Under the pieces are notes generated by a model. It was not told the origin of the DNA. It did no database searches and saw only the letters and a list, made by a program, of their open reading frames with translations. A stretch of 64,000 bases of DNA from Porodaedalea pini. Taxonomy: Eukaryota > Basidiomycota > Agaricomycetes > Hymenochaetales > Hymenochaetaceae. The stretch spans positions 868,001 through 932,000 of the forward strand of contig NBAY01000009.1 in the NCBI GenBank assembly GCA_002794775.1, given 5' to 3'. Within the stretch, counting starts at the first letter, position 1. Each line of letters starts with the position of its first letter. The position numbers and the translations under genes are program-made. Below, in pieces: positions 13,689-64,000 of this stretch.

Positions 13689-16048
13689 GATATGGGTGCG
13701 GGCTACTGGTCTGGGCTACGCTGAGTTGGACTGTGCGGAGCTTGAGGGCCTTTCTTCGCTGGTTGTCGGGTGCTTGCTCGCGATCGCAGAGGCCTTCGCT
13801 CTTGTCGGTACGGCTTCGGCGCGCCTTCCACCTTGTACTCTCTTCTCTCCTCTTTTCTAAATTTCCTAGCAATACATGTGTCTCTTACACCCTTCCCTCC
13901 AACCGTACACCCAAGTATCTCATTCATCCATCCATTTGTGCGGCGCGACTTGTCCATTCACCATACACGGTCTCCTCTTCCTTTTCTCTCCTCGATTTTG
14001 TAATTCGGCTCGTATCTTCCGTAGATCTCTTTTTTCCTTCTCTTATCTTCATTGACTCGACTCTTGTTACTTCTATTATTCCATGTGCTCGAGCCCTTGC
14101 AAAGCATTTTCTCTATATTATACTACTGTCTCGTCTCATCATCCGCTTTTCAGCCTTTCGGCTCTCAAGTTTTAGTGCTGGATTGGCGGCCCGAAAGGGG
14201 CAAGTGGGTTTGAATTCCCACCGTGTGTGCATCTCTCCTGAAAACAAAGCAAATCTTGGACAGTGATTGAAGAGCTGATATCTGAAATGAGTGGATGATC
14301 AGACAAAAACACTATGATTAATGCACTACAGTTTAGACATTAGATTTTGGAAGGACATATAAGTGGCATATAATACAAGAAAAATAAATGTGCATTTCCT
14401 GTAAGCATCTATCTAACTTGTATTTATCTTGTATCCTATGTGAAGGCTAATAAGAATATGATATACTGACTGACATGCTGACACCCAACATATAAACTGG
14501 TGAAGAGCCTTCCGGCTCCATTGTCAGGCATAATCAGTAGAATAAATACATTACAGCTCAGACATCAGACTTTCAGAGGGCATATAATCAGAATACAAAA
14601 TGATAAAAGTATAGTATTTTTTTGTAATTATCTATCTGTCTTGTATATGCCTTGTATTGCACCAAAACTCTTGTAACGAGCTTGTATCCGACTCGAAGAC
14701 ATTTTGGCACATGACAAGCTGACTAACAGACTTTTATTACCTTACAAGGTATACAAGGCTATACAGGCGACGCGACTTTTTCGTGATGACCCGCTCGGTC
14801 AACTAATGCACGTTGCGCATCTCTGAGTGCCATTGCCACTGAAGTCTAACCGCCGGAGATGTTAGCAGATCCGAGCCGAGCCTAGAGTTCTCATATTGCA
14901 ATCGTGCCTCCTCCCTCGGTCGAATACAAATGGCTTTCGCCGGGAATGATTAACTCGATTCCTGAACCTCACGGGAATTCGAGCTAAAAACAGAAAAATC
15001 TCATAAGTCAAAAGCCTCGAGCTTCGCAGTTGGCTCGGGGGTGATGTACAGTCTGTTATCGAGCCCAGAAAAATATGACGCTGTATGGGGAAAGCTACAC
15101 TTAGAAGGGATGCTTCGATTCATGCGAAGTAGTTCCAAAAGTCGGTGAGACGTGTCTTCGCTCGAAATGTTATTCCACGATTCATGCGTATTGGTCTGCA
15201 TTCTTGCACGCATTTAGAGCGTAAAGCCTCCGAGCGTCTCTGTGCTCTCAAGTAAAAAATAGAGGATAGGGTTCAAGGTTAGAGCTTGACTGTATAGCGA
15301 CGATTCTCAACAGAGGGGAAGGAGGCTATCATTGCATACTCACAGACCGGCTAGCTCCTGAGTACCCCCGTTAAAGCACACGACTAGAAAAGAACCGAAG
15401 ATCCATGAGGCGCAGAGGCAAGGGAGTTCCTCAGAAGCTCACCTTAAGAGTATACATAATCATACCTAACTCGGAGGGATGGGAAAGGGGAGAGCGTCGA
15501 ATGCTCAGGTCAGAGCATCAATGGCCGATGGCTGTTCTCAGGAAACACGGGTTTTACTCCTGCCGCTATAGCCGCCCAAGTCTAAAAACATAGCAGCAGT
15601 GCGCGACTTTATCCGTGATCAAGCTGCGAAGTAAGTGAGAGGGTCCCTTTTGTCATCATCTTGGTCGAGGCGAGGTGGAAGTGCGATTCGAAACCAATGC
15701 CACGCCAATGATTCAAAGAGCCTTTATTGTTGTGCTATTGGAGTGCGGTCCACCTCTTCTCTCGTGTCCGTTTCTTTGCTTCTAATAATTGAATGAAGAG
15801 CTTCGATTCGCTCCGTTGCGTCGGCACTTCATTAAAAGTCCCACAGCTCGGCGCCCCTTGCTAGTGAGCAGGCCAAAATCAGATGCTGAGGCAGTGCTAT
15901 AAGAATTTGCATAGAGGCCGGAGGCAAAAGCCCCCTGGAGCAGCGTGGAAGCGATTGAGGAGGTTTATTTTGCAATTGTCTCGCAAGGGATAAGTAGAGC
16001 CCTCTTTCTTGTGAAAAGCCCTCAAATTCCCCACAAGTCTCCACCAAC
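13689..16048. other. Gene-poor AT-rich stretch with a diverged ~230 bp repeat
   Basis: No gene is recognised in about 2.4 kb. The segments at about 14310-14460 and 14540-14690 are diverged copies in direct orientation: each runs from a cacta/tacag word through gacat-aga-ttt and catata to a cttgta cluster. The T-rich frame at 13733-14266 is low complexity, not a gene. The last 150 bp carry the promoter and 5' UTR of the repeat-peptide gene. Confidence 0.4.
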
Positions 16049-16638
16049 ATGCTCGCTCTCCACATCGTTTTCTTCGCCTCTTTCGCGCTCGCCCTGGCCG
16101 TCCCAACGTCTGTCAAGGAACCGGCTAGCGATGGTGAGTATCCGAGTTCCATCTGAGAAGGTGGACCACGTTAAATTGTTAAAAGGAATTAACGGCGCGC
16201 CGCTGGGGCAAACATTTAGGATGAGAGATGGTGAGAAGGAAATGATGATCGCCTGCTCGAGGTACCTGATGACTGATTCTAGGCATTGACGGAGCACCAC
16301 TTGGCCAGACCTTCCGCGCAAGAGATGGTGAGACTAAGAAGTTTAATATAATGACACAATCTAAGCACAAACGAAAGGTATAGACGGGGCTCCGCTTGGA
16401 GAGACGTTCCGAGTTCGCGATGGTAAAGAGACCCGCTTGTATACCAAATTCGGCCTGACGCAGAGCAATTCGCAGGAATCGACGGGGCGCCCTTGGGCGA
16501 AACCTTTCGTCCGAGAGATGGCATCAATGGCGCACCGTTAGGCGAAACTTTCCGTGTCCGCGGAGGTGCGTAGTTTCAGCTGATTCGGTGTTCAAAGATA
16601 AGAAGGACGCTGATGACATACCGCTAGGCGACTCGTAA
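16049..16638 (+). CDS. Secreted protein of five 15-residue repeats, one repeat per exon (novel peptide-precursor candidate)
   Basis: Closed six-exon model of 106 residues: 16049-16133, 16186-16230, 16283-16327, 16378-16422, 16476-16565 and 16628-16638. The start codon is followed by a clear signal peptide, a hydrophobic run ending ALALAVP, then a short TSVKEPASD spacer. Five consecutive units follow the pattern GI(D/N)GAPLG(Q/E)TFRxR(D/G), where x is M, A, V, P and V in turn. A GDS tail ends the protein. Exons 2-4 are exactly 45 nt and exon 5 is exactly 90 nt. Every intron splits the first Gly codon after its first base (phase 1), and introns are 50-62 nt. There are no cysteines in the repeats and no KR or RR Kex2 sites, but every unit has an R-x-R near its end. 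It could be a secreted peptide precursor or a repetitive wall protein. I do not recognise a family. Confidence 0.85.
16186..16565 (+). repeat. Tandem exon-intron repeat array of the peptide gene
   Basis: Units of about 95-98 bp (45 bp exon plus 50-53 bp intron) are repeated. The exon parts encode the same 15-residue motif, whereas the introns show no obvious mutual similarity by eye. The fourth and fifth coding units are fused without an intron at 16520/16521. Confidence 0.85.
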
Positions 16639-16911: not shown

Positions 16912-18026
16912 TTAAACGCCCATCTGCATCATCAACATAGTTTCGAAGGCATCGTCGCTCTTAGGCACATCTGTGCCTCGTGCACCGACGCCTGCTAAAA
17001 GGTCGCTGTCGCTGTCCGGAACGACCCAGTCGTTGGATTCTAGGCGTCTGTGGCCGACGAAAATAAAGCCTTCTGGGCCAAAAATATGCCAGTCCTGTTC
17101 CTCTCGAGCCACTTGTTCTCCGCCGACCGAGAATTCTTGTGATGTGTGATTCATCCCATGGCGGGCGAGTACGGGAAAGAATGTAAACCATAGGCCAAAT
17201 GCTGACCAAAAAGCGGTCTCCTTGGACAGGCTGCGGATCTTGTACGAAATTATGATCTCAGGCGATTGGCCAGAACGAGCGAAAGGCGACGACGTGAGTT
17301 GCAAGAGCGACCTGAGTAAAGGTGCAAGGAGATGAGGAAAGTACACCTAATTGGGTTAACTCTGCTCGCTCGGTGAAACTGAGCGAGCTCACAAGGTCGC
17401 TGCAAACTAGGTGCGTCAAGTGTCGTGGTCCTCCCAATTCATAGTTTTCGTCAGTCAGCAGGCCAGACAGCCGGTACACCTCCGCACTGTCTCCCCACGG
17501 CAGAGGGAGTATCTTGACGGGGACAATATCCATACCCATGAGGTGTGAAGCCAACCATCTCCGCCTTTCATTACGTAGAGTTTCTTCGAGTAGTGGGCAA
17601 ACATCAGAAAGATCGGTCAAGACGAGCAAATCCCTTGTCCTCCCGAGTCTTGACAGTTGTTCCGCTAACTTGAGACCAACATATCCCGTTCCAGAGCCGA
17701 GCTCGACGATTGTCAGAAAGCAATCGTCTTCCATTCGAGTGATTGAGCATGGTGGGTCGAACTGCCAATCGTGAGATACAGAGAGCTCAAAGTAGCGAGT
17801 CATGAGCTGAGCAGCTTCCCTAGCAAGTCCAAATGCCCGTATGAGCTCGTTGCATCAAGTCGGTGTGATGCTAGGACAATCACCAGATTCTTCCAGCAAT
17901 TCCAAACTGTTGTATGGCTCTTTTCTGAGCTTCTGCGTCGAATGACCCTTTCTCATCCTTCTCCGAGACAAGAGGCGTAATATCGAGGCCGTGAGGAAAA
18001 TTAGGGTGCGAGACTCGGGCAGACAT
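16912..18026 (-). CDS. Putative protein-lysine methyltransferase (Methyltransf_16 family)
   Basis: Exons 18026-17884, 17819-17393 and 17346-16912 give a closed 334-residue model. SAM-binding motif I is VELGSGTGYVGLKLA, followed by LVLTDL. An upstream QQFGIAGRIWEAAQLM segment and a downstream LPLPWGD and CSDLVYFPHLLAPLL are typical of the METTL21/FAM86-like family that methylates lysines in translation factors or chaperones. The substrate cannot be told from sequence. The start is placed where MSARVSHPNF begins, 38 residues before the family-typical QKRAIQQFG. The gene is divergent from ANT1 with 147 bp between starts. It is tail-to-tail with the repeat-peptide gene, but nothing shows a functional link to it. 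Confidence 0.86.
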
Positions 18027-18173: not shown

Positions 18174-19558
18174 ATGAGCTCGTCGAAGCCCCAGGAGCAG
18201 TTGACGCCGTTCGGATACGCGTTAGCGGGAGCTTTGGGCGGTGTTTTCAGTAACGCGTATGTCTTGTAGCTATTTCGCTCGTCCGCCACGACTGACTCAA
18301 GTTTCCACTAGTGTAATCTACCCTCTCGATACGTGTGTACTATTCTTCATACTACTTAGTGGGAGTCTAACAAATGGGCAGGGTTAAAACACGTATCCAA
18401 GCGGATTCCACAGTATCAACAAAGGGCAAGACACGCGATGTCTCAGTCATATCGCTGCTTTTACGTATCCTGCGCGAAGAGGGCGTATCGAGTTTCTACA
18501 ATGGATTCGGGGCGAGCATGCTGAACACATTCTCTACGCGTGAGTTCTACATTCAATTTGACAGCGTCTGGAGTATACTCAGTTGCCCGAAGAATATGCA
18601 TATTTCCTCTTTTATTCGTTCGTCAGAGGATCATATCTCAAGAGATTAAGCAGCCGATTACCGAAGGGCTCGAAGGCGCCGACAATCTCGACTGCGATGG
18701 AATTGCTGCTGGGAGCCATTGCAGGTGCCCTGGCTCAAATATTCACTATCCCTGTCTCTGTTATCGCGACGCGGCAGCAAGTTGGGCGCATCCAGCATCC
18801 TAACGAAGGCCCCGCTCCGTCTTCTCCATCAGAAGTCTCCCCTTCAAAGCCTTCCTATAGCGACGTAGCCGACCCCAGCTCATCTGTTTCTGCGCCTCCG
18901 GATACAACCCTTGATAATTCTTTTTTGACGGTCGGAAAAGATATCATCCGGACGGAAGGCGTGACTGGCTTATGGCTTGGGCTCAAGCCATCGCTTGTCT
19001 TGACTGTGAATCCGGCAATTACCTATGGCGTATTCGAACGGGTAAAAAGTCTGCTTCTGCTGGCGAAGGAAAAGACCGGAGGACAGCTCAAGTTGACGCC
19101 ATGGCAGTCCTTCTTCGTTGGTGCCCTAAGCAAATCACTTGCTACAGTGGTACGCCTTAGTATTCTTATTCATTTTCTCTCAGAGTTGAATTGTATCATA
19201 TTTGCTTTCAGGTAACATATCCATATATTATGGCTAAAGTTAAGATCCAGGCTGGAACGCAGAACTCGGATGGGGATCTTCCGACTTCGACCTCTGCTTC
19301 CTCGAAGAAGGCCAAAAAGGATGGCGCAGTCGCCATTTTGACCCGTATCTTGAAGGAGCGTGGGCTGTCAGGCTGGTATCAGGTACGGAGCTTTGGAAAC
19401 TATCTGAGAATTTCCACTGATTTCTCTGCCTACAGGGAATGGGCGCCCAGATCATCAAGGCTGTACTTTCACAGGCTTTACTTTTCATGTCAAAGGATCA
19501 GTTCGAGCAGTATGCGCTCATGATCTTGATTGCACAACGAAAACTTGCAAGCGCGTAG
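18174..19558 (+). CDS. ANT1: Peroxisomal adenine nucleotide carrier (SLC25A17/Ant1-like)
   Basis: Mitochondrial-carrier-family protein that exchanges ATP and AMP across the peroxisomal membrane in yeast. Exons 18174-18256, 18312-18332, 18382-18539, 18593-19149, 19212-19382 and 19436-19558 give a closed 370-residue model. Repeat 1 has YPLDTVKTRIQ, repeat 2 IPVSVIATRQQ, and repeat 3 TYPYIMAKVKIQ. These are three P-x-[DES]-x-x-[KR] carrier signatures, each after a hydrophobic helix. The N-terminal FGYALAGALGGVFSNA and the late ALLFMSKDQFEQY agree with Ant1/PMP34 rather than ADP/ATP carriers of mitochondria. The loop between helices 3 and 4 carries a Ser/Pro-rich insertion. Exon 2 is only 21 nt. 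The start is the first ATG after a 147 bp divergent promoter shared with the methyltransferase gene. Confidence 0.9.
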
Positions 19559-25924: not shown

Positions 25925-28522
25925 ATGATACGCACACAGACACGCACGTCCAGTATCTACTCTGCAGACGACCCCCTCGCACTCGCGCTGAGACCCCCGC
26001 CGCTCGAGTCCGAACAGGAGCGCGACGCACGCCTCGCGGCCGAGCTTGAGGCAAAGCGCATTTCAGACCGCATAGATGAGGAGCTGCGCCAGGAGCGCGA
26101 ACTGAAGAGACGCACCAACATGCAGGTCAAGGTATGTGTCTTTCGCCTCGCCTCGCCGTCTCCCCGTCTGTCTTCCATGCTTGCTGGGTCTATGCGGTGC
26201 AACTTCCCTTCTTGCTCGCCGCTGCTACTTCCGTTCTTCGCTAGCGGGAAAGATTTCGGGAATCGCTGGGCGCCAGACCACTTGTGGTGCTCGGTGATAA
26301 GTCCCTTAAGCTTGGGCAGTATTTGTCATGAGCCTATGTGTGCCTGTGGCCCGCGCACCTGATGCTCCTCCTTTCCCCATTTCGCATGTTTCCTCCACGA
26401 CCGCGCTCGCATCATACCTGCTGCAACAGCTTTGCCCCTTCAATTCACACACCAATCAACCTTTCTATTCGTGCAATGCCAAACATTTGATCGCGTCGCT
26501 TCTCTTCTCCCTATTGACTCGTCCTTTCTAGTTACTTCTCCTAGGGCAGGCCGAGTCTGGAAAATCGACGCTGCAGAAACAGTTCCAGCTCTTCTACGCC
26601 CCCGCTTCGCTCGACGAAGAGCGCGCATCATGGCGCGCGGTCGTCTACTTCAACGTCGTGCGCAACATCAAGCGCATTCTCCAGGCGCTCGACGCACTCA
26701 ACCTCGGATCTCCTAATTCGGTCCCCGTTGCGCTCCCTGGCACCACAGAGACCTCGCTCGATGTACAGAACGATGCCGAGATGGCAGAAAATGACGCGCT
26801 CGCGAACGGCGAGGGCGAGGGTGGTGGGCTGCCTGCGTTGACTGGCTCAGCGCGTACGGAGCTTGCGACGCTCAAGCTACGGCTCAGTCCCCTGCTCACC
26901 GCGGAGGCGAGCCTTGCAGACCGCCTTAGCGGCGGTGTGCAGGTTGGCGCACTCGCGCGTCGCCGCGGTGGTGGTGTGTACGTGCGTTCGGGATGGCAAA
27001 CGACGATGACGGTCTCTGGCAAGAAGAGACGACACGACGAGGACGGCCAGGATCAAAACGAGGAGAACGAGGATGGGAGTGGACGTGACCGTGTGGAGGA
27101 AGAGCTTGACAAGATTGCCCGTCTGCTCTTCGCGTGCCGTGAGGACGTGAAGGCACTCTGGGCGCACCCGGTTGTGCGCTCCATAATCGACAAGCGCAAG
27201 CTCCGTCTGCAGGAGAGCGCCGAATTGTACGTTCACACTTCCTCCTCTTAATTCAAAGAAAATGAAAAAAAATCCGACTTTGTTCTCTTCTTATACCCGC
27301 AGTTTCCTCAACAGCATCGACCGCGTCTCAAGCGCAGACTACACGCCATCAACGGACGATATTCTGCGCTCGCGACTGCAGACAATGGGTATCGCATCGC
27401 ACGAGTTCATGGTGCAAGTCTCTGGCAGGAGCGTCATATGGCACCTCTACGACGTCGGAGGCGCCCGCGGCCAACGACACACGTGGGTGCCGTACTTCGA
27501 TGATGCGAACGCGATTATTTTCCTGGCACCCGTGAGCGCCTATGATCAGGTGAGAATTGCACATTTGCTTGCGAAGACGCGGATGTACTGAAGATTTTTT
27601 TAGTACCTCGAGGAAGAGCCGAAGACGAACCGTATTAACGATTCGCTGCAGCTTTTCACTATGATCTGCTCGAACGAGCTGCTCAAGAAGGTCCATCTCG
27701 TACTATTCCTAAGTCAGTATCTTCCATGCGATGTAATGGTTGTAATCCCGCTGACTACAATTGTTCGGCGTTTACTCGAATAGATAAGACGGATGTTTTG
27801 AAGCAGAAAATCGCAGCAAAGGTCACGGTCAAGCGCTAGTGCGTCGTATCTCCCTCAAATTTGGGACATGATTGTCTTAACGGTGCTGAACGAACGAACG
27901 TTTTAGCATACCATCTTACGGTGACCGTCCGAACACATACGAGGCCGTCATTGAGTACTTCCGCACGCACTTTTTACAGGTGCATCGCAAGAATAACGAG
28001 GAACATCGTGTGCTGTACACGCATCAGACGAGTGTCGTCGACACGAGTACGACGCAGAGCGTCATTCGGAACGGTGAGCAATGCTCCTTTCCTTTCCTGT
28101 CCTTCCATTCTCCCTCCCTGTTTCACTTTCCCCTCTTCCTCCTTCCTCTCTGATTTCATCAACATCATTGCTTTCACCTTTTTCCTCTCCGTTCCATTCC
28201 ATTTTACTGCCCATATCTGTCTCTTTCTCGGCTTTTACTCGTTCCTGTCCCTTTTTTCGCATCGCACCTTTTCAAGATGACGGGCCGGCGTGCCACTCGT
28301 CTCTCAGCAGACCACCTTCCATCAACATCATCATCAGCGAACGTCGGGTGTCCGAAATCGGATGTACATTCTCTCTTCCTTACTCGCCGTATCAAACATC
28401 CATCTCTTCTCTTATCCCTCCACTGCCCATCATTCTCAGATACTAACAAACTTTTCTTTTTCTCCCATGCAGTGCGAGATTCCATCTTCCGTGGATATCT
28501 CCAAGAAGCCTCACTCGTTTGA
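25925..28522 (+). CDS. Divergent heterotrimeric G-protein alpha subunit
   Basis: Exons 25925-26131, 26532-27226, 27303-27549, 27604-27712, 27784-27838, 27907-28073 and 28473-28522 give a closed 509-residue model, about 150 residues longer than a standard G-alpha. The P-loop GQAESGKST, switch I SRLQTMGI, switch II DVGGARGQR and the base-recognition FLNKTD are in order. The last TCAT-type motif appears as TSVVDT. The extra length is an acidic, Glu/Asp/Gly-rich insert in the helical domain. Two features are odd. The catalytic Gln after DVGG is Ala, and the N-terminus MIRTQTR lacks the MGxxxS/C lipidation signal. The first and last introns are about 400 nt, far above the local norm. It belongs to the extra G-alpha class common in Agaricomycetes rather than the pheromone or cAMP subunits. 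Confidence 0.92.
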
Positions 28523-60843: not shown

Positions 60844-63105
60844 TCATAAATTAACAAGGCAGCTTTTCCATTCTTGAAGGAGGTCGAGTTGGAGCTGCGC
60901 GGTGAGATTCGGGAGTGAGTCCGGGATGGGCTCATGAACTCGGTTGGTTGTGGCGTCCTTGGCCAATTTGTCGGCCTTAGAATTGCCCAGGACTCCCTTG
61001 TGTGAGGGGAGCCACTGGACCGCAATGTGTGACGTGGGGTGGTGTTGGACTAGAAATATTCCGCACAGATGACGAAAGAGGATGATGAAGTCAGTGTGAC
61101 TATTATCGTCAGTAAAGATGAGGTTGGCGCAATTCAGCAAATCGATGACGACGTGAATGTGCACTGGTGTGGAACATTTCGTGAGAAGAGAGGATATCCG
61201 GCATATGGCTGCGATGAGCGCTTCCTGCTCCTCAAACAATATATTCGAGCGAGAGTGTGCTACTGAAGAAAAGACAGCTAGTTCGGTGTGATCGTGCATA
61301 ATAACGTAACCATGGCCACCGATGGTGGCCCCGTTATCGTCAGGGATGATGGAGCCATCTGTAAAGATAAAATATTGGTAAGGAGGTGGGTGTAAATAAA
61401 AGGAATTAAATGAGCGAATAGCTCTCTGGCACTGGTCAGGAGCTGGGATAGGAATAAGTGTGAGCCTGGAATGAACAGGGACGAACACAGGGTAAGAGGG
61501 GGATTTGGGAATGGAGATGTGTGGAAGGAGCGTGTCGCAAAGATAGCTGTTTTTGTTGGGAATATGTTTTGAATGCGAATAGTAAGAGAGTAAAAAGTTT
61601 TGGGACAACCTGCAAATAAAAAGATCGAGTGGGGGAATCGAAAGGACCGATTCTGCGATAGAAGGGCTTAAAGTATGTTGGAGAATGGAATGTAAGAAGC
61701 GGTTCTGAATGGGTTGTAAAAGAGACAAAATGAGGTTGGATTCAGGGAAAAGAACTGCACCGTAGATTGCCACGGAGCGGATGAGGCCGAAATATAAAAG
61801 TCGAGCATATTGAAAGTATGCTCCATTGGAAGAATTGAAAAGGAATGAGTGTTGGTGTAGGGTAGAAAGCGCCTTGTTCGCGCGAGCTTGGAAATGAAGT
61901 TTGGGCGATAGGTCAAAGGAAAAAATGACCCCTAGCCATGTGATATGTTGTGAGGGCAATATGACAAGATTGCCCGGAAGAGAAAGAGAAAATGAGGACG
62001 ATTGAGGTTGATTAAAAAGAAAAGATCGAAAATGGAAGCGAGCCATCTGAGGCTGCGGAATGATGTGTAAAAGTTCGATGGCGTTGGGATCAACAGATAA
62101 GCCAAGTGCCTGGAATTGGGAGAAAAGAAAAGAAAACTGATTGCACAACTGTACCAGATTAGTCTGGATACTGAGCAACCGGGCAGAAAGGAGATGATCG
62201 TCCATGTATGCAAATAGAGGGCAATGAGGGCCAAAGCGTTTGTAATAGGAAAAGATCACGTCAGCTGAAGCGAAGATTGAAATAAGAGGGGGCAGAGGGG
62301 ATCCCTGAGGGACACCGTGGTTGGGTTTTATAAAAGGATTGGAAAAGAAATTGTTAAAGTGAAATGAAATTGGGCGATCGGTAAGCCAATTGGCCAAGAT
62401 ATGAATGAAGTTAGGATGGACCTTTGAACGAATGAGTTTGTTAAGAAGAAGAGGATGGGAGATGTTATCAAAGAAACCCTGGATGTCCATGGATAGAATA
62501 GAAGTAATGTAATAACGGTGTCGCATATGAACACTCTTTTGGACTGGTTCGCTGGGTGTAATAAAAGGATTAGAAAGGATAAAGGATAAAAGTTCGTAGC
62601 AAGCGGTGAGAGATGAGCGGTGTTTTCGACACCCATGTTGAGAGTCAGGGAGGAGGTTATTCTTTTCGAAGAAGGGTTGGAGAAAATTGAAAAGAACGTG
62701 TTCAAAAAGCTTTCTGATTGTGTCCACCAAAGTGATGGGTCGGAATGCCCTAGGCACCAAAAAATCGGAGCATTTGGGCTTGGGGATGAAAGTGACTAGA
62801 GACATTTTAAAAGAAAGGGGAAAATGGCCTAATTCAAGGCATTTGGAAAAAAGGTCTGCAAAAAATTGTCCATGGTGTTCTACCAGCAATGCGAGGTGTT
62901 GATACGAGATATGGTTATTCCCAGGGCTCGTTTCTTTGTCGATACCTCGAAGGGCATTGAGCACGTCGTTCGTCGACACAATCGGGCTGTCAGCTAGCGC
63001 CGGTAGATGGACCGGTTCTGGCTGAGACGAAAGAGGCGGAAAGAATGTACTGCGAAACAGGGAGGCTTTGTCGTCCTCAGTAGTCAAGAAGGATCCGTTT
63101 GGCAT
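60844..63105 (-). CDS. Reverse transcriptase with RNase H (LINE ORF, central part)
   Basis: Longest uninterrupted frame of the element, 753 codons. RT blocks include FIPKPKCSDFLVPRAFRPIT, MDIQGFFDNISHPLLLN (first catalytic Asp), NHGVPQGSPLPPLI and FAYMDDHLLS (YMDD active site, about residue 295). RNase H follows with FIFTDGS, EEQEALIAAI and HIAVQWLPSHKGVLGNSKAD. The frame ends at a TGA after SCLVNL, beyond which the same frame continues into the zinc-knuckle part. Its start as given is just the first Met after the upstream TGA, not a true start. Confidence 0.88.
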   Translation of the reverse strand: MPNGSFLTTEDDKASLFRSTFFPPLSSQPEPVHLPALADSPIVSTNDVLNALRGIDKETSPGNNHISYQHLALLVEHHGQFFADLFSKCLELGHFPLSFKMSLVTFIPKPKCSDFLVPRAFRPITLVDTIRKLFEHVLFNFLQPFFEKNNLLPDSQHGCRKHRSSLTACYELLSFILSNPFITPSEPVQKSVHMRHRYYITSILSMDIQGFFDNISHPLLLNKLIRSKVHPNFIHILANWLTDRPISFHFNNFFSNPFIKPNHGVPQGSPLPPLISIFASADVIFSYYKRFGPHCPLFAYMDDHLLSARLLSIQTNLVQLCNQFSFLFSQFQALGLSVDPNAIELLHIIPQPQMARFHFRSFLFNQPQSSSFSLSLPGNLVILPSQHITWLGVIFSFDLSPKLHFQARANKALSTLHQHSFLFNSSNGAYFQYARLLYFGLIRSVAIYGAVLFPESNLILSLLQPIQNRFLHSILQHTLSPSIAESVLSIPPLDLFICRLSQNFLLSYYSHSKHIPNKNSYLCDTLLPHISIPKSPSYPVFVPVHSRLTLIPIPAPDQCQRAIRSFNSFYLHPPPYQYFIFTDGSIIPDDNGATIGGHGYVIMHDHTELAVFSSVAHSRSNILFEEQEALIAAICRISSLLTKCSTPVHIHVVIDLLNCANLIFTDDNSHTDFIILFRHLCGIFLVQHHPTSHIAVQWLPSHKGVLGNSKADKLAKDATTNRVHEPIPDSLPNLTAQLQLDLLQEWKSCLVNL

Positions 63106-64000
63106 CCTGAGTGCACTGATAGGGGCGCGACGACACGCGACACCCGTGAACTGTCAGTGCCAGATAGAGTGCTGATCAGAGCTTTGAAGGCGAGCTCCGT
63201 AAAATGCGGTTTTGGCCCTGGACAATTCTGCGTCCAGCCGCTTTTTAGATTCAGCAGATGGGTTTCGGCAGTGTTCCCAATAGAGTTTGGAACAGGCTTC
63301 GGACCACCAAGAGTTGGGGCCAAAGTACATGCGGGGTTTGCGTTTGTGGAGGAATGCCTTGGCAAAAGAGGAAAAGGAGTCCTGGAGAGAAAAAAGGAGA
63401 TCGTCCAGCGACTTCACCAAATGAATGTCTTGAAGGTCAAAGGGAAAAAGTTTAGAGTCGCAGAATTCAGAAACGAAAGTTGGTAAATCATGGGAACGAA
63501 TAGACCGAAGAGGATGTTGAGGGGGGGCGGCAAGAAAGTTGATATTAAAGGAAAATGATAGCGGATAATGATCTGATGGGGTAGTGAAAGAAGGATCGGA
63601 AATAACGATAGACTCGGAAATTTGAGAAGAAAATTCGTCAGACGAAAGGACGAGGTCTACGATAGAAGAATGATTGGTGGATCGGTTATGATAAGTTGGT
63701 TGGCCTGGTGGGTTGCAAATAGTAAGGCCGGCCTCACTGATCCAGTCAGTGAGAACTCGGGAATGTCAGCGACGGACTACAGGTACGTAAGGGGTAGCCG
63801 GGTCGCGTGGAACTCAGTCAGAGGAGGAGGGAGAAGAGAGAGAGAACGGTGAGCCAGGGGAACTGACACAGCGTAGAGGTAAGGGGACAGCTTCTGGACG
63901 TAGCCAGGTAGAATTGACCAGGTCGAAACTAAGGGATAAGTACAGGAGGACTACCTACTTATATACCCTACAGCGGCTGCGCACGGACCAGGGAATTAGC

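Follow-up and report, generated by a model that had tools for sequence, protein, structure and literature searches.

The window analysed here is a stretch of 64,000 nucleotides from Porodaedalea pini (contig NBAY01000009.1, positions 868,001 to 932,000). Between positions 16049 and 16638 on its forward strand, a reading of open frames and splice sites gives a coding span of six exons, whose product of 106 residues would be a short secreted repeat protein. The gene appears to be a real protein-coding gene, with predicted splicing. Its product begins with a hydrophobic, signal-peptide-like stretch (MLALHIVFFASFALALA), which is followed by a short leader, by five units of 15 residues, and by a tail, GDS. 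The features of the gene, all read from the sequence, are listed below.

15898..15903, + strand: TATAAG, a possible TATA box, 151 nt before the ATG
16049..16133, + strand: exon 1, 85 nt, encoding MLALHIVFFASFALALAVPTSVKEPASD plus the first base of a Gly codon; signal-peptide-like
16134..16185, + strand: intron 1, 52 nt, GTGAGT...AAAAG, phase 1
16186..16230, + strand: exon 2, 45 nt, unit 1, GINGAPLGQTFRMRD
16231..16282, + strand: intron 2, 52 nt, GTGAGA...TCTAG, phase 1
16283..16327, + strand: exon 3, 45 nt, unit 2, GIDGAPLGQTFRARD
16328..16377, + strand: intron 3, 50 nt, GTGAGA...GAAAG, phase 1; alternative in-frame acceptor at 16365
16378..16422, + strand: exon 4, 45 nt, unit 3, GIDGAPLGETFRVRD
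16423..16475, + strand: intron 4, 53 nt, GTAAAG...CGCAG, phase 1
16476..16565, + strand: exon 5, 90 nt, units 4 and 5, contiguous, GIDGAPLGETFRPRD GINGAPLGETFRVRG
16566..16627, + strand: intron 5, 62 nt, GTGCGT...GCTAG, phase 1
16628..16638, + strand: exon 6, 11 nt, tail GDS and stop codon TAA (16636-16638)

Exon layout and repeat units

All five introns are bounded by GT and AG, and each interrupts the opening Gly codon of a unit between its first and second bases, a homologous place within the unit. Intron 5 opens the tail at that same unit position, and the tail may be a truncated sixth unit. Most units occupy one tiny exon each; units 4 and 5 share exon 5, and their boundary (16520/16521) is the only unit boundary without an intron. 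Unit starts are spaced 97, 95, 98, and 45 nt apart in the genome. Given the lengths and phase of the introns, the five units do not share one genomic frame, and only splicing would join them into a single frame. The units do not depend on intron 5: its retention would end the protein in ...VRGGA* and its removal in ...VRGGDS*, with identical units either way.

The units follow the consensus GI(D/N)GAPLG(Q/E)TFRxR(D/G) and are near-identical in all five cases. Both Arg residues of the R-x-R motif are kept in every unit, even though their codons have moved between AGR (AGG or AGA) and CGN in some units. Each of the five units has an Asp ahead of it, supplied for unit 1 by exon 1 (which ends in ...ASD), while a Gly follows the last unit, where there is no further core. 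The protein contains neither Tyr nor Cys. Its N-terminus is hydrophobic and, judged by eye, is likely to be cut after ALALA, leaving the leader VPTSVKEPAS, so that the protein is predicted to be secreted.

An earlier note on this DNA had proposed much of this layout. The junctions it named (16133/16186, 16230/16283, 16327/16378, 16422/16476, and 16565/16628) all fit exact GT-AG introns, and its exon sizes (45 nt for exons 2 to 4, 90 nt for exon 5) and Gly-codon-splitting introns recur in the re-derived model. The five repeat units it described are present, as is the pattern it saw in place of dibasic sites: the spliced protein has no KR, RR, KK, or RK pair in its 106 residues and has five R-x-R motifs. 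The note had also spoken of one hypervariable residue. The residue between the two Arg does differ in this way (M, A, V, P, and V in units 1 to 5), but positions 3 (D/N), 9 (Q/E), and 15 (D/G) vary too.

Age and conservation of the array

The units resemble each other far more as protein than as DNA, which is the strongest evidence obtained and goes beyond the earlier note. Pooled over the ten unit pairs, the proportion of synonymous differences (pS) is 0.90, and the proportion of nonsynonymous differences (pN) is 0.137, or 0.100 when the variable residue is left out. Fourfold sites are identical in 16 of 71 unit-pair comparisons, against a random expectation of 0.26, and the synonymous differences between units are saturated. 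By codon position, identity between units is 0.77 at the first, 0.93 at the second, and 0.29 at the third. Mean unit identity is 0.83 for protein versus 0.66 for DNA. Neutral simulation at that DNA identity, a rough guide that took one present-day unit as the root of a star tree and let all rates be equal, gave a mean protein identity of 0.41 and a maximum of 0.61 in 1000 runs. Constraint on DNA or on splicing signals alone would not free third positions while fixing the first two.

The introns show no clear kinship. Among the ten intron pairs, the highest similarity has a z of 2.0 (introns 2 and 5), followed by 1.12 (introns 4 and 5), with all others at 0.34 or below. No clear remnant of common descent is left among them, and they may have been gained separately at the same place. 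Because synonymous sites are saturated, the introns dissimilar, and protein identity between units 83%, the array is an old one that has not been homogenised and whose peptide has been kept by purifying selection, rather than a fresh tandem duplication. It would have originated when a phase-1 symmetric exon was duplicated long ago together with an intron, and purifying selection on the peptide would since have held the units alike. The intron between units 4 and 5 would later have been lost exactly, or would never have been copied; these units meet exactly where the others carry an intron, as expected from exact intron loss or from intronless duplication.

The array exceeds what chance would give. 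When both strands of the window were scanned for peptide units 70-170 nt apart, chains of at least three units were found at this locus only, together with its antisense shadow. Six windows were resampled with a first-order Markov model and a single strand of each was scanned; five had no pair at all and one had a chain of two. A scan of the window plus 200 kb flanks on contig C9 (20 loci, both strands), with more spacing allowed and the threshold set slightly lower, recovered the locus as a chain of four on the + strand and its shadow as a chain of three on the - strand. The only other chains of at least three in that span were four in locus L022, all of low complexity, one of which changes frame. 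In L022, at about 8.0-9.6 kb, low-complexity peptide repeats are clustered on both strands.

It is accordingly very improbable that the gene is non-functional, whether as a decayed gene or as a chance repeat. Such a reading would suit the lack of convincing protein relatives and of any Pfam match, as well as the AAG acceptors of introns 1 and 3 (two of the five acceptors). However, the protein is conserved at saturated synonymous sites, all five introns lie at a homologous place, the frame is open and ends in a stop codon, and none of the six resampled windows held a chain of three or more units.

Relatives, neighbours, and known repeat precursors

One copy of the gene was found in the 53-Mb genome, although the searches for paralogues give lower bounds. 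A six-frame protein search of the whole genome returned 12 matches, of which five are the gene's own pieces and seven lie on contig C31. The latter were rejected as paralogues and attributed to chance likeness, as the frames in which they fall are WD-repeat-like, having blades of the type SGAPVGEPLRGH (four loci on the + strand and three on the - strand). These long frames (loci L008-L014, at about 303-305 kb and 413-415 kb) contain near-identical blades, SGAPVGEPLRGHTG, that resemble GAPLGETFR by chance, and presumably belong to NACHT/WD-type genes. At the DNA level, a pattern of intron plus unit matched the genome three times and a core pattern twice, in each case inside the gene.

A protein search with the 106-residue product found two word-sharing candidates (among candidate lengths of about 58-185), neither of them at E<=10. 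A longer query (candidates of about 141-448 residues) gave two matches, with E values of 0.011 and 0.17, among 7997 scored, these being the candidates with the most words in common. One match full of GETPLGETPLGET (PF05671) and one with repeated SSGAPLGPEFRVN-like stretches were judged unrelated from their sequences, which have neither the unit nor the layout. The protein searches gave no convincing relative or orthologue, and the gene's protein has no Pfam match. Since the database searched holds many Agaricomycete proteins, including those of Coniferiporia, Phellopilus, and Fomitiporia, the absence of relatives there means either that gene models were missed or that the gene is lineage-restricted.

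The window also holds a gene for an F-actin capping protein (CapZ-beta), whose best named relatives are from Coniferiporia weirii, Sanghuangporus baumii, Phellopilus, and Fomitiporia; three of these species belong to the Hymenochaetaceae. Identity to these relatives is 90-97% in the first exon piece, 73-75% in the middle piece, and 90-92% in the last (Coniferiporia, Fomitiporia). Two upstream frames, at 10.2-10.7 and 12.6-13.1 kb, have no Pfam domain above the cut-off. Other neighbours, the first two from the Pfam scan, are as follows.

17261-17854, - strand: frame with a methyltransferase_16 domain
18562-19212, + strand: frame with a mitochondrial carrier domain
26532-27248, + strand: frame with a G-alpha match stretched over extra residues (frame residues 1-234 versus profile 24-145), through either introns read through or a divergent G-alpha
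60847-63153, - strand: open frame of 769 residues whose domains are reverse transcriptase (RVT_1) and RNase H; a retroelement, perhaps similar to a long interspersed nuclear element (LINE)

The closest published parallel is with KEX2-processed repeat proteins (KEPs; PMC6339444, PMC7329392, PMC9769878), which share a signal-peptide-like start, tandem repeats, a short secreted precursor, and basic unit ends. KEPs have been mined as proteins with an endoplasmic reticulum signal peptide and at least three tandem repeats of at least eight residues, lying between KR, KK, RK, or RR (PMC7329392). The gene has five units of 15 residues but none of these pairs, and its layout of one unit per exon goes without mention in the passages of the KEP literature available, where the word ‘intron’ occurs zero, zero, and one times in the three papers. 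By the published criterion (PMC7329392), the protein is not a KEP, even if on the reading favoured here it works like one.

Other precursor types are more distant. Dikaritins (of the ustiloxin, phomopsin, and asperipin type) are likewise made from secreted repeat precursors, and Tyr is mandatory for cyclisation in three of them (PMC7329392). The gene was ruled out as a dikaritin by its lack of Tyr and of dibasic sites, and by the position of the genome's UstYa (DUF3328) matches, none of the 11 being on C9 (a six-frame count, and thus a lower bound). Those matches lie on contigs C76, C51, C19, C29, and C21, with several close together on C51, C19, and C29, and these groups are possible dikaritin-type clusters elsewhere in the genome. 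Alpha-type mating pheromone precursors also carry short secreted repeats, but they have Kex2 sites and X-A/X-P dipeptides; here there is no dibasic Kex2 site and no run of X-A/X-P Ste13 dipeptides at the unit starts. The C-terminal CaaX motif needs a Cys, and the absence of Cys rules out a CaaX-type pheromone precursor.

SP7-like effectors of arbuscular mycorrhizal fungi resemble the gene in having a signal peptide, imperfect repeats, a conserved island at each unit end, and an intron before the first repeat (PMC11333574). They differ in having one conserved intron before the repeats, and the available passages do not mention introns per unit (PMC11333574). An SP7-like effector was rejected because these occur in Glomeromycotina, whereas the closest named CapZ-beta relatives of the host are Hymenochaetaceae.

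Schistosome micro-exon genes likewise encode secreted proteins, and most of their short exons have lengths that are multiples of three (PMC10526429). They belong to an animal parasite, have a quoted maximum exon of 81 bp, introns of 100 to almost 5000 bp, and very few conserved motifs (PMC10526429), whereas here one exon reaches 90 nt, the introns span 50-62 nt, and the units are nearly alike. The resemblance lies in a signal-peptide exon, as judged by eye, followed by short exons divisible by three (45, 45, 45, and 90 nt). Tandemly repeated exons encoding 81-base repeats were reportedly described by Davis et al. in 1988, a work cited in PMC10526429. By analogy, the gene could be a diversifier in which symmetric exons are skipped or included by alternative splicing, so that unit number and mix vary. 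Exons 2-5 are all of phase 1-1, so the frame survives any skipping, and the alternative acceptor in intron 3 would insert AQTK in frame. But because the units are nearly the same, skipping would alter dose more than content, and the introns are of the short kind usual in fungi, where the common event is intron retention. Although the short exons of schistosome genes are discussed together with alternative splicing (PMC10526429), this explanation is improbable here.

In the open-access papers searched, which do not cover most subscription journals, no description was found of repeat-per-exon secreted proteins in fungi, nor of such a gene in Hymenochaetales. The earlier note's statement that no described family fits thus agrees with the protein, Pfam, and literature searches, but the separate parts do have precedents in KEPs, SP7 effectors, and schistosome micro-exon genes. 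The protein would be a KEP-like repeat precursor that combines R-x-R spacers with a unit-per-exon structure.

Proposed peptide release and its alternatives

The reading favoured here, with a probability of roughly 0.5, is that the gene encodes a secreted KEP-like repeat precursor that is cut at its R-x-R spacers to release near-identical linear peptides. The units suggest a working register in which the core is D-GI(D/N)GAPLG(Q/E)TF and the spacer R-x-R: because Asp precedes all cores but not the tail, D would start the core and R-x-R would end it. The signal peptide would be removed first, after which a Golgi or extracellular protease, either Kex2 or another Arg-specific type, would cut the spacers and free up to five linear peptides, D-G-I-(D/N)-G-A-P-L-G-(Q/E)-T-F. 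The variable residue would be lost in the linker, or would be left on a C-terminal tail trimmed by a Kex1-like carboxypeptidase. Splicing, secretion, cleavage, the mature peptide, and a signalling or defensive use are all predictions of this reading. The genome contains three matches to the kexin P-domain, on contigs C6 and C8. When Coprinopsis cinerea KEPs were expressed in Pichia, several products ended after a single Arg, which the authors considered possible monobasic KEX2 cleavage (PMC9769878).

Several observations weigh against peptide release. The protein lacks dibasic sites and convincing relatives, its signal peptide was judged by eye, and two of its predicted introns have the AAG acceptors described above. 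An R-x-R with R at P3 is not known as a standard site for Kex2 or furin. No R-x-R precedes core 1, which has just K23 ahead of it, so that some other means would have to define its N-terminus. Lastly, a structure model of the two-unit exon 5 peptide has two short strands (E8-10 and E25-27) in weak beta pairing, with a mean pLDDT (a local confidence score) of 74.4 in the best of five models and 56.0-61.9 in the others, and this leaves room for a folded repeat.

These points bear on the main alternative, which is possible though the less probable of the two: a secreted repeat protein that acts whole, as a wall, surface, or matrix protein or as an effector, its units serving as binding or beta-strand modules and its Arg residues as contacts. 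The absence of dibasic sites and the two strands of the model would suit such a protein. The units recur regularly every 15 residues, always with Gly at the same three positions and never with Cys, and could therefore form a beta repeat. Among fungal proteins, the SP7 effectors are an example of secreted repeat proteins (PMC11333574). However, unit 4 has a Pro at its variable position, between the two Arg, which would be awkward for a strand there, and the structure model is weak (predicted template modelling score, pTM, 0.32). The freedom of that one residue suits a linker better, as does the fact that Asp is missing only behind the last unit. Where the earlier note had left the choice open between peptide release and a wall protein, the substitution pattern thus favours release with an R-x-R linker, without settling the matter.

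Fungal peptide precursors have so far been mined via dibasic sites in predicted proteins. In one such survey, there were 69,264 tandem-repeat proteins at the relevant pipeline stage, and 7,878 passed the Kex2-site and length filter (PMC7329392). That dibasic filter misses a precursor whose linkers are R-x-R and whose units sit on tiny exons of their own, and gene prediction probably misses it too. Should the peptide be made, the gene would suggest that mushrooms have further secreted peptides that have stayed hidden, and would indicate one way in which repeat arrays can remain stable.

A broader and rather unlikely proposal is that the gene represents a non-dibasic class of peptide-hormone-like precursor, in which an exon equals a core plus its R-x-R linker, and in which the introns make neighbouring units dissimilar as DNA and so prevent the array from being shrunk or homogenised by recombination. 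Many repeat precursors have highly repetitive DNA. This may be why amplification of one KEP did not succeed (PMC9769878). If such a class exists, unit number and sequence would be fixed over long times, and splicing could also set the dose of the core. Genes of this class would have been overlooked by KEP mining, which needs both dibasic sites and a good gene model.
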